From positions 2,163,501 to 2,227,500 of the forward strand of contig NZ_CP016757.1 of the NCBI RefSeq assembly GCF_001701045.1: DNA of 64,000 bases, written 5' to 3'. The DNA is from Cloacibacillus porcorum (GTDB taxonomy: Bacteria; Synergistota; Synergistia; Synergistales; Synergistaceae). Positions within the stretch are counted from its first letter, which is position 1. Every line of letters begins with the position of its first letter. The notes under the pieces were generated by a model. That model was not told the DNA's origin, did not search any database, and worked only from the letters and a program-made list of their open reading frames with translations. A program made the position numbers and the translations under genes. Below are positions 19,511-24,869 of the stretch, piece after piece.

Positions 19511-21205
19511 CTATGCCTCCTTCGCGTGGTAGTGTACGTGGAGCAGCTCGTGGACGCGCCCCTTCAGCAGCCCGCTGTAGAGCGAAAGCATGAGCGGGTT
19601 CTCCTCCGAACGTTTGATGCTCGACATCTTGTCCGCCGAGTAGAGTCCCTTGGCGCGGCTCACTTTGCCTTCGCGGAGGATGAAGGGCTGTCCAGCGCCG
19701 CAGACACAGCCGCCGGGGCAGGCCATGACCTCCACAAAGTCGTAGTGTTCGCCCTCCTTGATGCGTTTTATCAGCTCATGGGCGTTTCCAAGGCCGCTGA
19801 CCACCGCAATCTTAAGCTCCCTGTCCCCGTATTTCACCGTCGCCACTTTGATTCCCTCGCCGCCGCGCACACCTTTAAAGGCGATCGTACGGAGCGCCGC
19901 CGCCGATTTGTCAGAGATTACCCGGCGCAGTACCGCCTCGGTGACGCCGCCTGTGACTCCGAAGATGACGCCAGCGCCGCTCATCGTGCCGAAGGGCATG
20001 TCGACCGCCTCCGGCTCAAGCTCTGAGAATACGATGCCGGACTCTTTTATCATCTGAATGAGCTCCTGCGTGGTGATTACGTAGTCAACGTCGGGTCCCA
20101 GCTCGCCGCGGAATTCCTCGCGCGCCGCCTCCGCCTTTTTCGCCGTGCAGGGCATGACCGCCACATGTACATGCTTTCTCGGCGAATGTTTGTGGTGTTC
20201 CTTAATCACCGCGGCGAACATCTGCATCGGCGAGCGGCAGGTGGAGAGGTTTTTAACCACTTCCGGCTCGTTCTTTTCCGCGTAGCTGACCCAGGCGGGA
20301 CAGCAGGAGGTGAAGAGCGGCATCTCGTGTTCGCCCTTGCCGAGACGCGCGAGAAACTCCGCCGATTCTTCAAGCACCGTGAGGTCCGCGCCCGTCGAGG
20401 TGTCAAATACCTCGTTGAAGCCCATCCGGCGCAGCGCCGCGACGATGAGCCCCATCGCGTTTTCGCCGTCGCCGATGCCAAGCTCTTTGCCGAGCGCGAC
20501 GCGCACCGCGGGGGCTATCTGCACGGAGACGCGCGTCTCTTTTTCGTCGAGCGCCTTCCAGACCCGCGCGCTGTCGTTCTTTATCACGATCGCGCCCGTC
20601 GGGCAGACGGCGGCGCACTGGCCGCAGCCGACGCAGACGCTTTCGCAGATGGGGATGTCAAAGACGGTGCTGATCGTCATTTTTGAGCCGCGCCCCGCGA
20701 AGTCGATCGCGCCGACCTGCTGTATTTCGTTGCACATTCTCACGCAGTCGCCGCAGAGGATGCACTTGTTGTGGTCGCGCGTGATACAGAGCGACGACTC
20801 GTCGCGGCGGGGCGTCTCCGCTCCGTTCGGGAAACGCACGCCCTCGATGTTGAAGCGCATCGCGAGGTCCTGTAATTTGCATTTGCCGTTATTGTTGCAG
20901 GTGGTGCAGTCGCGGCAGTGGTCGGCGAGCAGAAGTTCAAGGATCATCTTGCGGTATTTGCGGAGACGGCCGGTGTTCGTCCATATCTCCATACCCTCTT
21001 TGGGCGGGGTCGAGCAGGCCGCGTCAAGACCGCCCCATTTATTCTCCACCATGCACATGCGGCAGGCGCCGTAGATGGAGAGCTCCGAATAGTAGCAGAA
21101 GGTCGGAAGCTTGATACCAGCCTTGCGGATAACCTCAAGGATATTCTTTTCGTCCTCTATTTCAACGGGGAGCCCGTCTATCATCATATATTTTTTCGTA
21201 TCCAT
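19511..21205 (-). CDS. hydA: [FeFe] hydrogenase catalytic subunit HydA (multimeric, NAD(P)-linked type)
   Basis: A 564-residue iron-only hydrogenase. Domains in order: N-terminal [2Fe-2S] (about 1-80: CYYSELSIYGACRMC), a His-ligated [4Fe-4S] (HCRDCTTCNNNGKC), two [4Fe-4S] ferredoxin motifs (CILCGDCVRMC, CVGCGQCAAVCP), the H-cluster domain with TSCCPAW, MPCTAKKAEA and ACPGGCVCGAGQP, and a C-terminal small-subunit-like tail (ENPLMLSLYSGLLKG). All H-cluster cysteines are present; the last motif reads GAG where GGG is common. With the NuoF- and NuoE-like subunits it should oxidise NADH and possibly reduced ferredoxin to release H2, or run in reverse. Maturases HydEFG are not in the window. Confidence 0.93.
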   Translation of the reverse strand: MDTKKYMMIDGLPVEIEDEKNILEVIRKAGIKLPTFCYYSELSIYGACRMCMVENKWGGLDAACSTPPKEGMEIWTNTGRLRKYRKMILELLLADHCRDCTTCNNNGKCKLQDLAMRFNIEGVRFPNGAETPRRDESSLCITRDHNKCILCGDCVRMCNEIQQVGAIDFAGRGSKMTISTVFDIPICESVCVGCGQCAAVCPTGAIVIKNDSARVWKALDEKETRVSVQIAPAVRVALGKELGIGDGENAMGLIVAALRRMGFNEVFDTSTGADLTVLEESAEFLARLGKGEHEMPLFTSCCPAWVSYAEKNEPEVVKNLSTCRSPMQMFAAVIKEHHKHSPRKHVHVAVMPCTAKKAEAAREEFRGELGPDVDYVITTQELIQMIKESGIVFSELEPEAVDMPFGTMSGAGVIFGVTGGVTEAVLRRVISDKSAAALRTIAFKGVRGGEGIKVATVKYGDRELKIAVVSGLGNAHELIKRIKEGEHYDFVEVMACPGGCVCGAGQPFILREGKVSRAKGLYSADKMSSIKRSEENPLMLSLYSGLLKGRVHELLHVHYHAKEA

Positions 21206-21209
21206 CTCA

Positions 21210-23084
21210 CTAGACCTCCTTGACTGCGTGGAAGGGGCATGCGGTGACGCACGCGCCGCATTTGATGCACTTATCTTTGTCGATCGTGAAGGGTTCTTTT
21301 ATCTTGCCGCTGATGGCCTCGGTGGGACAGCCGCGCGCGCACTTGGAACAGCCTTTGCAGAGCGCGGGATCTATCTCGAAGCTCTTTAGCTTCGCACAGG
21401 CGCCGACGGGACAGTATTTTTTATTGATATGCGCCTCGTATTCCTCACGGAAATTTTTGATGGTGCTCACCACGGGAAGGGCGGCGGTCTTTCCGAGCCC
21501 GCAGAGCGCGGTGTGCGAGATCATGTCGGCAAGCTCGAGCAGCAGTTCGATGTCACCCTCTCGCCCCTCGCCGGCGACGATACGCTCAAGAATGGCAAGC
21601 ATCTGTTTCGTGCCGCCGCGGCAGGGAACGCACTTGCCGCAGGACTCGTTCTGCGTGAAGTTCATAAAGAAGCGCGCCACCTCGACCATGCAGGTCTTGC
21701 TGTCCATGACGACGAGGCCGCCGGAGCCGATCATCGCCCCCGCCGCCGTCAGCGAATCAAAGTCGAGGGGCAGGTCAAGGTCCTTTGCCGTGAGGCAGCC
21801 GCCTGAGGGTCCGCCGATCTGTACCGCCTTGAAATCCGCGCCGCCGCGCATGCCGCCGCCGACCTCGAAGACGATCTCGCGCAGCGTCGTGCCCATCGGC
21901 ACCTCTATCAGTCCGGTGTTTTCAATATTTCCCGTCAGCGCGAAGGCCTTCGTTCCCGGGCTCTTTTCAGGGCCGAGCTCCTTGTTCCACGCCACGCCCT
22001 TATTGATGATAAGCGGCACGTTGGCAAAGGTCTCAACGTTGTTGAGCACCGTCGGGCTGTCAAAGAGGCCATGCTCCACGGTACGCGGCGGCTTGACGCG
22101 CGGCATGCCGCGCTTACCCTCGATGGAGGCGGTCAGAGCGCTGCCCTCGCCGCAGACGAACGCGCCCGCGCCGCGGTTTATGTGCATATGGAAGGAGAAG
22201 CCGCTGCCGAGGATGTCGTCGCCGAGGAGCCCCAACTCCTCCGCCTGCGCGATCGCGGTGCGCAGCCGCGAGACCGCCATCGGATATTCGGCGCGCACGT
22301 AGATGTAGCCGTTCTGCGCTCCGCAGGCGAGTCCGGCGATCATCATGCCCTCCAGCATGCGGTGCGGGTCTCCCTCCATGATGCTTCTGTCCATAAAGGC
22401 TCCGGGGTCGCCCTCGTCGCCGTTGCAGACGATATATTTTTGCGCCGCCTTCTGGCGTTTTACCTGGCTCCATTTACGGCCTGTGGGAAATCCGCCGCCG
22501 CCGCGCCCGCGAAGGTTTGATTCCTCAATCATTCCGACAATTTCGTCGCCGTCCATATCGAAGAGAGCGCGCTCAAAGGCCGAATAGCCGCCGATCGCGA
22601 GATATTCTTTGATGGAGGTGGCGTCGATGTGGCCGCAGTGCTCGAGGACATGGCGCGTCTGTTTTTTATAGAAGGGGATCTCGTCCTGTTTCTTGAAGAC
22701 CTCACCGCCTTTCTGATAGGCGAGGCGTTCGATGTGGGTGCCGCCGATTATCGTCTTTTCCACGATCTCCGCGCAGTCCTCCGGCTTCACCTTGACGTAG
22801 AGCCAGCCCTGTGGTTCGATACGCACCAGCGGCCCCATCTCGCAGAAGCCGTGGCAGCCGGACTTTTTCAGCCCGACGGAATGTTCGTGCGGCTCCTCTT
22901 TAAGTTCGACTGCGACATTGATACCGCGCTCCGTCATGATCTTTTTCAGCTCGTCATATATCTCCAGGGAGCCGCTCGATATACAGCCGGTACCGGCGCA
23001 GATGAGGATTTTTTTGTCTTCCTCGCCGAGGCTGGCGGCGTAAATTTTGCGCAGTTTCTGAAGTTCTTCGCGTCCCTTTATCAT
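21210..23084 (-). CDS. hydB: Hydrogenase diaphorase subunit HydB (NuoF-like)
   Basis: A 624-residue flavo-iron-sulfur subunit. N-terminal thioredoxin-like [2Fe-2S] domain (about 20-110: CAGTGCISSGS, GCHGFCEMGPLV), NuoF core with NADH/FMN-binding GRGGGGFPTGRKWS and ICNGDEGDPGAFMDRS, the [4Fe-4S] site ESCGKCVPCRGGTKQM, and a C-terminal two-cluster ferredoxin domain (CKGCSKCARGCP, CIKCGACVTACP). It takes electrons from NAD(P)H and passes them to HydA. The fused N- and C-terminal ferredoxin domains are those of the trimeric or bifurcating hydrogenase type, so bifurcation is possible but cannot be decided from sequence. It is 4 bp from hydA and 1 bp from hydC. Confidence 0.93.
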   Translation of the reverse strand: MIKGREELQKLRKIYAASLGEEDKKILICAGTGCISSGSLEIYDELKKIMTERGINVAVELKEEPHEHSVGLKKSGCHGFCEMGPLVRIEPQGWLYVKVKPEDCAEIVEKTIIGGTHIERLAYQKGGEVFKKQDEIPFYKKQTRHVLEHCGHIDATSIKEYLAIGGYSAFERALFDMDGDEIVGMIEESNLRGRGGGGFPTGRKWSQVKRQKAAQKYIVCNGDEGDPGAFMDRSIMEGDPHRMLEGMMIAGLACGAQNGYIYVRAEYPMAVSRLRTAIAQAEELGLLGDDILGSGFSFHMHINRGAGAFVCGEGSALTASIEGKRGMPRVKPPRTVEHGLFDSPTVLNNVETFANVPLIINKGVAWNKELGPEKSPGTKAFALTGNIENTGLIEVPMGTTLREIVFEVGGGMRGGADFKAVQIGGPSGGCLTAKDLDLPLDFDSLTAAGAMIGSGGLVVMDSKTCMVEVARFFMNFTQNESCGKCVPCRGGTKQMLAILERIVAGEGREGDIELLLELADMISHTALCGLGKTAALPVVSTIKNFREEYEAHINKKYCPVGACAKLKSFEIDPALCKGCSKCARGCPTEAISGKIKEPFTIDKDKCIKCGACVTACPFHAVKEV

Positions 23085-23085
23085 C

Positions 23086-23562
23086 TTAGAGCTCCTCCTT
23101 GAGCGCGGCGACGAGCTCGGAGGCCTTATCGGGCGTCATCGCGGGATAGACTTTGTCGTTTACGGTGAGTACCGGCGCGAGACCGCAGGCGCCGAGGCAG
23201 GAGACGGTCTCCACGGTGAAGCCAAGGTCGTCGGTCGTCACCTTTTTATCGGAGAGTGCCAGCTCGGAGCGCAGACGGTCTAGGATGGGGATCGATTTGC
23301 GCACGTGACAGGCGGTGCCGTCGCAGACTTTGATTACAAATTTTCCCTTCGGGTTGAGGGAAAAATTCTCATAAAAGGTGGCTACGCTGTATATGCGCGC
23401 CTGAGGAACCCTCAGCTTCTTCGAGAGGTAGGGAAAAATCTCACGGGGCAGATAGCGGTAATGCTCCTGAATATCCTGCAATATCGCGATAACGGCCGTA
23501 CTCGAGGATTCATGAGCCTCAAGTATCTTATCGATGAGCGAGTAATCAAATTTTTCTGTCAC
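23086..23562 (-). CDS. hydC: Hydrogenase subunit HydC (NuoE-like [2Fe-2S])
   Basis: A 158-residue NuoE-family protein with a helical N-terminal part (HYRYLPREIFPYLSKKL, VATFYENFSLNPKGKF) and a thioredoxin-like [2Fe-2S] domain with cysteines in VCDGTACHV and CLGACGLAP. It completes the HydABC complex with the NuoF-like subunit. It starts 118 bp after rex on the same strand and is probably co-transcribed with it. A short GCCC/GGGC repeat near 23595-23608 and the repeated CCGGTTA motif near 23669-23682 lie in that gap. Confidence 0.92.
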   Translation of the reverse strand: MTEKFDYSLIDKILEAHESSSTAVIAILQDIQEHYRYLPREIFPYLSKKLRVPQARIYSVATFYENFSLNPKGKFVIKVCDGTACHVRKSIPILDRLRSELALSDKKVTTDDLGFTVETVSCLGACGLAPVLTVNDKVYPAMTPDKASELVAALKEEL

Positions 23563-23680: not shown

Positions 23681-24337
23681 TTAAATACAGAGACTTTCCT
23701 GGCGCTGACGCAGCCTGCTGGAGAGCGCCGCGAACGAAGCGGCGAGATTTTCATTCGAGATTATCACATCGCCGGGGACATTGAGGTGCGCCGGCGCAAA
23801 GTTCCAGATCGCCTTGATGCCGCCGCGTACCATCGCGTCGCAGATATCCTGCGCGTACTGCGCGGGAGCCGTGATGATGCCGATGTGGACAGTGAAACGT
23901 CCGCAGAGCTCCGTCAGCCGCGAGACGTCGAATATCTCCTTGCCGTGCACGGTGCTCCCGATCACCGCGGGGTCGCTATCGAATCCGGCGATGATCGAAA
24001 GGCCGTAGCGGTCGAAATTTTTATATGAAAGAAGGGCGCGGCCAAGATTGCCCACACCGGCGACCACCGCCTCATGAGCGTTTTTGCAGCCCAGGAACTC
24101 TTCCATATCCTCGATAAGCCCCTCCAGGGCAAAGCCGATACGCGGGTTTCCGTCGACCTTGGAGACGGCGGCGAGATCTTTTCTCACCTGCACGGGGTGA
24201 AGCCCCAGCTCTCCCGCGAGAAAGGCCGCCGACACATGGCTGCTGCCATCGGCGCGCAGCTTTTTGAGGTGTTCAAGATAGAGCGGCATTCGCTGCAGAG
24301 ATTGTCTTGATATGCTTAAAGGTTTTGTATTAGGCAC
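23681..24337 (-). CDS. rex: Redox-sensing transcriptional repressor Rex
   Basis: A 218-residue repressor that senses the NADH/NAD+ ratio and controls fermentation and hydrogenase genes. N-terminal winged helix (about 1-75: RMPLYLEHLKKL, HVSAAFLAGELGLHPVQVRKDLAAV) and Rossmann NAD(H) domain (GVGNLGRALLSY) are intact, with the C-terminal domain-swapped helix. I set the start at GTG 24337, 7 nt after GGAGGG; an in-frame start eight codons upstream lacks an RBS. It precedes hydCBA on the same strand, which implies that it regulates hydrogenase expression. The perfect palindrome around its own -10 box suggests autoregulation. Confidence 0.93.
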   Translation of the reverse strand: MPNTKPLSISRQSLQRMPLYLEHLKKLRADGSSHVSAAFLAGELGLHPVQVRKDLAAVSKVDGNPRIGFALEGLIEDMEEFLGCKNAHEAVVAGVGNLGRALLSYKNFDRYGLSIIAGFDSDPAVIGSTVHGKEIFDVSRLTELCGRFTVHIGIITAPAQYAQDICDAMVRGGIKAIWNFAPAHLNVPGDVIISNENLAASFAALSSRLRQRQESLCI

Positions 24338-24365
24338 CTGCTCACCCTCCATTACTCTCACATCG

Positions 24366-24406
24366 TTTATTATCGATAATTATATATCGATAATAAAAAT
24401 ATGCAA
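24366..24406 (-). promoter_or_regulatory. rex promoter embedded in a 13-bp-arm palindrome
   Basis: Minus strand -35 TTGCAT (24406-24401), 16-bp spacer, -10 TATAAT (24384-24379). The -10 hexamer is exactly the centre of a perfect palindrome, TTTATTATCGATA-N6-TATCGATAATAAA (24366-24397). A third TATCGATA lies at 24449-24456. Placement predicts repression by whatever binds it, with Rex as the obvious candidate, though the motif differs from the usual TTGTTAA-type Rex site. Confidence 0.65.
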
Positions 24407-24480
24407 CCCCTATTCTGAGAAAACGCAGGATAAATCTTTCAGTCTGCTTATCGATATGGAATATATCCTCTCTAAACACA

Positions 24481-24509
24481 TTGATTTTATACCATATATG
24501 GTGTATATT
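24481..24509 (+). promoter_or_regulatory. hipB-like promoter with internal inverted repeat
   Basis: -35 TTGATT (24481-24486), 17-bp spacer, -10 TATATT (24504-24509). Within it lies TATACC-N6-GGTGTATA (24488-24507), whose core ACCATATATGGT is a perfect palindrome. The layout fits autorepression, as in hipBA systems. Confidence 0.55.
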
Positions 24510-24550: not shown

Positions 24551-24766
24551 TTGAATAAGAATAATCTTGCTATAACTGTGAAAAAAAACCGGAAAAAATT
24601 ACACCTCACCCAAGTAGAGGCGGCGGAACGGGCTGGAGTCGGGCTGCGCTTTATCCGTGAGCTGGAGTGCGGCAAGAAGACGCTGCGCATGGATAAGGTA
24701 AACGACCTGCTCTTTCTCTTTGGACTGGAGCTGGGACCTGTACCGATGGAGCGAGACGATGAGTGA
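24551..24766 (+). CDS. HipB-like antitoxin/regulator, Y4mF family (XRE)
   Basis: A 71-residue helix-turn-helix protein. LHLTQVEAAERAGVGLRFIR and ELECGKKTLRMDKVNDLL match the Y4mF/HipB subfamily, which normally pairs with a HipA kinase toxin. The start is TTG 24551 with a GGGGTG RBS-like stretch. A frame overlapping its stop (ATGA) opens like a HipA N-terminus but ends after 36 codons, so the toxin appears lost. HipB alone may still bind its own promoter palindrome. It is divergent from rex, and the two promoters share about 180 bp of AT-rich DNA. Confidence 0.75.
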   Translation: MNKNNLAITVKKNRKKLHLTQVEAAERAGVGLRFIRELECGKKTLRMDKVNDLLFLFGLELGPVPMERDDE

Positions 24767-24869
24767 GCCTCTGCGCCGCTGTGTCGTTAATTTTTTCGGG
24801 CGTCCCGCAGGCGAGCCATACTGCAAGGAAAAACATTTTACACAATTAAGATACAAAACAACCAAATAA
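24759..24869 (+). pseudogene. Truncated hipA-like remnant
   Basis: An ATG overlapping the hipB stop codon (ATGA) opens 36 codons (MSEPLRRCVVNFFGRPAGE onward), with the VxxNGRPAGE-like opening common to HipA N-terminal domains, then stops at TAA 24867-24869. No kinase domain follows before tsaD; a repeat unit (24923-25078) occupies the space. I read this as the stub left after a deletion. An unrelated short peptide is possible. Confidence 0.45.

Follow-up and report, generated by a model that had tools for sequence, protein, structure and literature searches.

A paired-octamer palindrome at a rex-hydABC promoter as the predicted operator of a divergent Rex clade

Results

A perfect palindrome encloses the -10 hexamer of the rex-hydABC promoter

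The window analysed here is a 64,000-nucleotide stretch of the Cloacibacillus porcorum genome, itself a single 3,585,187-bp contig. On its minus strand, the window carries a gene for a 218-residue Rex-type repressor (23681..24337; NF003994, 267.8 bits for a cut-off of 130). Downstream of this gene, on the same strand, lie genes for a hydE/nuoE-like [2Fe-2S] subunit (23086..23562), a hydB/nuoF-like NADH-binding subunit (21210..23084) and the [FeFe] hydrogenase HydA (19511..21205; TIGR02512 above cut-off). The best model for HydA is NF040763, that of the NADH-dependent group A6, at 672 bits and thus below its cut-off of 765. This Rex falls into a clade of its own, described below, for which we coined the label 'Rex2'. 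The longest open reading frame of rex2 begins at 24361; we infer that translation starts at the GTG preceded by GGAGGG, a sequence also found in the nearest relative (G001).

Upstream of rex2, direct reading and an inverted-repeat search identify a perfect 32-bp palindrome (24366..24397), which reads TTTATTATCGATA-ATTATA-TATCGATAATAAA on the plus strand. Its 13-nt arms are 100% complementary and flank a 6-nt spacer, which on the rex strand (minus, 24384-24379) is TATAAT, the -10 hexamer of the rex-hydABC promoter. Within the palindrome lies a paired box, TATCGATA-N6-TATCGATA (24371..24392), made of two half-sites that are themselves palindromic and have their centres 14 bp apart; the outer 5 bp on each side are less conserved than this box. 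We propose this 'Rex2 box', which recurs before other rex2 and fermentation genes, as the operator.

A sequence-only reading of this DNA had described the palindrome as centred on the -10 box and as very unlikely to arise by chance, and both statements hold. At local composition, such a palindrome is expected about 0.09 times per 64 kb and 0.0003 times per 250 bp. Perfect 13-nt arms with loops of 0-20 nt give 10 overlapping entries in the window, corresponding to five places, among which 24366-24397 is the sole AT-rich one. Two other elements of that reading stand in part. The -35-like TTGCAT (24401..24406, minus strand) is indeed 16 bp upstream of the -10 hexamer and its position is kept in four relatives (TTGCAA in L006 and L007, TTGCAG in L009 and TTGAAT in L010), but it matches the consensus at only 3/6 positions and is absent from the promoter-scan listing. 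Likewise, a third TATCGATA octamer does exist at 24449..24456, giving three copies in the window (mean 0.80 in shuffled sequence, with three or more in 6/100 shuffles). Because no second octamer lies 14 bp from it and orthologous upstream regions do not show it, it is probably incidental and outside the element.

The exact coincidence of spacer and TATAAT is found in 4 of the 48 collected rex2 boxes, all from close relatives, with TATCAT or TATTAT in two others, and is therefore a local feature and not a rule.

Rex2 forms a distinct clade with an altered wing

The window genome encodes two Rex proteins, namely Rex2 and a canonical Rex with the canonical helix and wing (Rex1, G000:C1:1293129), which share 27% identity. 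Rex2 itself belongs to the Rex family: it has an N-terminal winged helix followed by a Rossmann domain (PF06971 and PF02629) and scores above cut-off with the Rex model. When its AlphaFold model is compared with the PDB, ranks 1-39 of the best 50 matches belong to the Rex family (two of these chains are named AT-rich DNA-binding protein); the domain orientation is unsure because the model has a pTM of 0.55 and TM-scores are mostly about 0.5.

Residues expected for NAD binding and for reading the major groove are retained. Across 14 aligned Rex2 proteins, G102, G104, G107, Y113 and D128 are invariant, the equivalents of the GxGxxG motif and of Tyr100 and Asp115 in Thermotoga maritima Rex, as are R60 and K61, the counterparts of the major-groove readers Arg48 and Lys49. 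The T. maritima NADH-switch residue Asp191 is replaced by Asn in 14/14 (Asn205); the T. ethanolicus Rex has His at this position.

The wing is where the two types part. The Rex2 wing, exemplified by VSKVDGNPRIGF, typically follows the pattern G-[KNR]-P-[RK]-x-G-[FY], in contrast to the glycine-rich canonical form G-x-x-G-x-G-Y found in 29/29 reference rows (25 Rex1 and 4 PDB chains). The proline wing, and not the canonical one, was scored in 85 of 88 Rex2 rows. Among the other three, L182 owes its score to a wrongly picked frame, the right frame reading GGRPRTGY, and L226 and L231 lack the proline. Six further Rex2 rows fell outside the wing extraction; five of these read GKPR or GRPR and L224 has no proline.

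In a tree of 116 rows, all 87 Rex2 rows lie on one side of a long branch with support 100/99, although the program warned of an unsettled bootstrap and of a long T. ethanolicus row. Members of the clade are found in Synergistota, Bacillota, Chloroflexota, Omnitrophota, Bacteroidota and other phyla. Five loci (L172, L187, L191, L205 and L213) contain, within 10 kb, another Rex-like gene whose score against the window Rex2 is 186-216 bits; the Rex2 subfamily thus seems to have been duplicated as well.

The paired box marks fermentation genes in the window genome

To follow the box across orthologues, we compared the 450-bp upstream regions of the window's rex2 and of eight orthologous genes. The octamer pair is present in 6/9 (L005, L006, L007, L009, L010 and L011), L008 has one octamer only, and L012 and L013 have none. 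Because the upstream flanks differ widely and the neighbouring genes are different, this conservation is that of a promoter-operator and not of a long conserved block.

Genome-wide, the paired box at up to one mismatch occurs six times in the window genome, compared to none for the reversed control pattern. Five of these six stand before rex-hydABC, adhE (two overlapping boxes), a gldA-like gene and an NADH:flavin oxidoreductase gene (OYE), and a two-mismatch box precedes an Fe-alcohol dehydrogenase (Fe-ADH) gene. Target calls are based on domain matches, and 'gldA-like' is our own reading of a protein of the Fe-ADH family. The search for TATCGATA-type sites before other fermentation genes, which the sequence-only reading had put forward as a check, is accordingly positive. 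G001, the nearest relative, likewise carries boxes at all five targets. When three mismatches are allowed, the pattern occurs 25 times against 12 for the control, so these looser sites are in good part chance and were left out as targets. The single palindrome TTATCGATAA was tried as a genome-wide motif and performs poorly (7 sites versus 3 reversed); it is the paired form that separates from the control.

The sixth box (211716; L089:2717-2738) is located downstream of OYE and has a counterpart in G001 (L136:5206-5227), so that both genomes of the genus share it. No recognised gene follows, and the box perhaps serves a small RNA or small protein. Another two-mismatch box (L095:2153-2174) precedes a TOBE-domain gene, behind what by eye appears to be a P-type ATPase gene, and may be real or due to chance; it was left out of the target counts together with sites in L041, L046, L048 and L139. 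Locus L049 holds repeats and open reading frames that by eye resemble Cas1 and Cas2, and is probably a CRISPR locus.

The box follows Rex2 across genomes and phyla

We assessed co-distribution in 121 genomes, the window genome and 120 relatives, calling Rex2 at 47% identity or more, which yields 13 genomes. The box (up to one mismatch) is found in 12/13 genomes with Rex2 compared to 3/108 without (G032, G035 and G098), a Fisher p of 5e-13 computed without correction for relatedness; the reversed control pattern is found in 4/121. In the 12 genomes having both, 30 of 36 boxes have, starting within 350 bp, rex2, adhE, Fe-ADH, the gldA-like gene, OYE, a PAS-containing [FeFe]-hydrogenase gene, the pyruvate:ferredoxin oxidoreductase gene (PFOR) or lysR/ldh, where G012 counts through lysR alone, its ldh starting 629 bp away. 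The six boxes without a listed target are G000:211716, G001:3207705, one in G014, one in G028 that adjoins lysR close to the end of a contig, and two of the three in G115. Rex2-bearing G021 has three-mismatch copies only, and the rex2 genes of G012 and G027 have no box upstream.

A canonical Rex is also encoded in 8 of the 13 Rex2 genomes. No match to it was found in five box-bearing ones, G027, G066, G068, G070 and G115, which are 72-97% complete, with only G115 above 90%. A LysR-type regulator gene (L089:5264-6196) travels with Rex2, often as a rex2-lysR pair.

Scanning GTDB genomes with an alignment of Rex2 proteins gave at least 544 confirmed relatives, of which we analysed the best 80. 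These come mostly from Bacillota, but also from Chloroflexota, Omnitrophota, Bacteroidota, Spirochaetota, Thermodesulfobacteriota and, in two cases, Synergistota, with many metagenome bins among them. Within 350 bp upstream of the gene at the best 80 loci, the box is present at up to 0, 1, 2, 3 and 4 mismatches in 14, 29, 34, 39 and 45 loci, respectively, compared to 0, 0, 0, 2 and 17 for the reversed pattern and to maxima of 0, 1, 1, 2 and 7 over 50 rounds of dinucleotide shuffling, in a set that is uncorrected for relatedness, holds close pairs and includes three upstream regions shorter than 350 bp. Scanning spacers of 0-24 in the same best 80, a spacer of 6 dominates, with smaller peaks at 20 (two 14-bp periods) and 7. 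The remaining 46 of these 80 best-matching loci have no box at up to two mismatches within 350 bp; some of them have related half-sites such as TATCAGTA, or are placed behind other genes of the set. The best 80 once more have adhE, Fe-ADH, [FeFe]-hydrogenase and hydABC genes as neighbours.

Among 16 named Rex2 genomes, boxes are found in 13, with 26 boxes in total versus 1 for the control. In Acetivibrio mesophilus and A. straminisolvens, adhE and a hydrogenase-like gene come after rex2, and two Acetivibrio genomes with the rex2-adhE pair have perfect boxes.

The box keeps the geometry of a Rex operator with a different sequence

In the T. maritima Rex-DNA complex, Arg48 reads Gua5 and Lys49 recognises Ade8 of ATTTGAGAAATTTATCACAAAA (PMC8836258, as excerpted). 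Counted on that complex, these bases are 6.5 and 3.5 bp from the dyad. In TCGATA-N6-TATCGA, the core of the Rex2 box, a G and an A lie at identical distances. In the left arm of the 48 collected boxes, this A is present in 48/48 and the G in 45/48, counts that are inflated by the choice of sites on consensus similarity. The window box has the half-site spacing and the G/A contact positions of a canonical operator, including its 18-bp core symmetry, and does not have the sequence TTGTKAA-N4-TTMACAA, in agreement with the earlier remark that the core differs from standard Rex sites. Both kinds of site also share their genomic setting, as canonical operators (TTGTTAA-N4-TTAACAA or TTGTGAA-N4-TTCACAA) are likewise described upstream of rex and hydrogenase genes in excerpts of PMC8836258, PMC8457756 and PMC6391272. 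They differ at half-site positions 2 and 4 and in an outward TA that widens TCGATA to the self-palindromic octamer TATCGATA, often with a third half-site at 14 bp, while the proteins differ in the wing.

Rex binding to a canonical TTGTTAA-type site elsewhere, and not here, had been named by the sequence-only reading as the observation that would speak against it. Such sites are not enriched in the window genome: at up to two mismatches there are 34 versus 31 for the control, with 0 exact. In the 16 named Rex2 genomes, TTGTTAA-N4-TTAACAA at up to one mismatch is not above control in total (65 versus 69), though exact canonical sites precede an adhE in G132 and G135. Upstream of the best 80 of at least 544 rex2 genes, at up to two mismatches, TTGTTAA-N4-TTAACAA occurs 5 times and TTGTGAA-N4-TTCACAA twice, versus 0 reversed for each. 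Because canonical-like sites are slightly above control, canonical Rex may additionally control some Rex2 genes; a clean split into two regulons, one for canonical Rex and one for Rex2, is a suggestion.

Half-sites recur at a strict 14-bp period

To look for additional half-sites, we collected boxes with up to two mismatches from the full length of 106 loci, counting each cluster once and keeping all relatives, which gave 92. A third half-site at exactly 14 bp accompanies 33/92. Among the 184 flanks, a half-site at offset 14 is seen in 36, and none of the other offsets from 9 to 25 gives more than 3. In the window genome, the adhE and Fe-ADH promoters are of this three-half-site type and the rex2 promoter is not. 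Since the half-sites are self-palindromic and recur at a strict 14-bp period, Rex2 might conceivably bind such arrays by occupying several registers or by forming an oligomer on the DNA, beyond one dimer per inverted repeat, a reading that we hold only tentatively and consider doubtful. If true, array binding would lead to a graded or cooperative NADH response; to our knowledge, no Rex is known to respond in this way.

Discussion

A predicted autoregulatory operator read by Rex2

We propose that the palindrome serves the adjacent rex2 gene as an autoregulatory operator and that its reader is, very probably, Rex2 itself, with an altered DNA specificity. In this model, Rex2 would use TATCGATA-N6-TATCGATA in place of TTGTTAA-N4-TTAACAA, its dimer placing one recognition helix on each TCGATA half-site. 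As in T. maritima Rex, the contacts would be made by the Arg and Lys of VRKDL, the former with the G 6.5 bp from the dyad and the latter with the A at 3.5 bp; the altered half-site sequence would go together with the altered wing. While NAD+ dominates and NADH is low, a dimer over the -10 box would exclude RNA polymerase; accumulation of NADH would, by homology with other Rex proteins, release Rex2 and switch on rex2-hydABC. Other genomic copies of the box would bring adhE, the Fe-alcohol dehydrogenase, the gldA-like gene and the NADH:flavin oxidoreductase, enzymes able to reoxidise NADH, under the same switch. Binding by Rex2, the individual contacts and promoter occlusion are predictions drawn from what the computational analysis shows: the box, its conservation, its co-distribution with Rex2, its target set, its geometry and its spacing.

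The sequence-only reading had left a choice between a new Rex motif in this lineage and another regulator controlling rex. A new motif is strongly supported, with two amendments: the predicted reader is the paralogous Rex2 and not the ordinary Rex of the lineage, and the motif is not confined to the lineage, as it follows Rex2 into other phyla.

Within Synergistota, a serious rival is the LysR-type regulator that accompanies Rex2, with the box as its site and rex2 among its targets, because an orthologue (E<=1e-40) is found in 12/13 Rex2 genomes of this phylum versus 0/11 others tested; lysR also adjoins rex2 in several loci and some boxes lie beside lysR. LysR-type sites are, like the box, AT-rich inverted repeats at promoters, but they differ in symmetry, being usually of the odd-length form T-N11-A, whereas the dyad of the box is even-length, as in Rex sites. 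G026 moreover has Rex2 and a perfect box with no LysR match at E<=1e-40. Among the 16 named genomes, all of which have Rex2 by construction, 8 of the 13 bearing boxes show no LysR match at E<=1e-20, in a search whose prefilter could miss one; the site thus also occurs where no such regulator is found. We consider LysR very unlikely to be the reader of the box and take it as a frequent partner or target.

That the canonical paralogue Rex1 binds the box seems very unlikely indeed. Rex1 is a Rex of the same genome, and canonical Rex regulates such genes (PMC8457756, as excerpted); yet the box is present in only 3/108 genomes without Rex2, most of which have a canonical Rex match (G032 and G098 do, G035 has none), the five box-bearing Rex2 genomes listed above have no such match, and the Rex1 wing is canonical in 25/25 extracted. 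It is hardly credible that the palindrome is a hairpin, a terminator-like element or a chance product of AT-rich sequence. Perfect palindromes of equal arm length do occur at the four other places in the window, but the two-octamer pattern is conserved with variable spacer letters in several phyla and before the same kinds of genes, and chance predicts far less than one such palindrome per window. A Fur-type reading, based on GATAAT repeats, was dropped: conservation sits in the paired octamers and follows Rex2.

A second Rex in Clostridium thermocellum and wider implications

C. thermocellum also has two Rex proteins. In excerpts of PMC8457756, Rex_2471 binds the canonical motif by DAP-seq and EMSA, and Rex_1799 (Cthe_0422, Clo1313_1799) is discussed through expression data. 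Like Rex2, the latter is a second Rex located beside adhE and hydrogenase genes (PMC8457756, PMC3848806). Cthe_0422 is, on its gene context, a presumed Rex2. An excerpt of PMC3848806 reports that Cthe_0422-0432, comprising rex, adhE and hydrogenase genes, are the most down-regulated upon furfural treatment, which its authors link to NAD(P)H depletion. Such a response is consistent with, though no proof of, a self-repressing Rex that is released by NADH, provided that furfural reduction drains NAD(P)H. The same excerpts of PMC8457756 and PMC3848806 give no operator for Rex_1799/Cthe_0422. Searching open-access literature by title and abstract start, we found no description of TATCGATA or TCGATA as a Rex operator; it may already be mentioned by Ravcheev et al. 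2012.

The operator described in the open-access papers found is that of canonical Rex, and the box provides a specific candidate operator and a target list for Rex2. Since two Rex proteins coexist in 8 of the 13 Rex2 genomes and in C. thermocellum (PMC8457756, as excerpted), and rex2 often has adhE and [FeFe] hydrogenase genes as neighbours, at the point where the routes to ethanol and hydrogen part, two NADH sensors of different DNA specificity possibly divide the fermentation genes. Rex1 and Rex2, differing in wing and half-site, make a natural pair for learning how the Rex wing helps choose DNA. Finally, the Rex2 box is a candidate orthogonal NADH-sensor promoter.

Neighbouring features of the window locus

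Divergent from rex2, the interval 24551-24869 on the plus strand contains a small helix-turn-helix gene of the Y4mF/HipB antitoxin type (TIGR03070). A palindrome upstream of this gene, ACCATATATGGT (24491-24502), is possibly its own operator. The helix-turn-helix gene is followed by a 36-residue open reading frame (24759-24869), which has no Pfam match and by eye resembles the start of a lost hipA. Because a HipA_C fragment lies upstream of rex2 in G001 (L006:859-1458), this arrangement suggests a hipBA pair decaying beside rex2.
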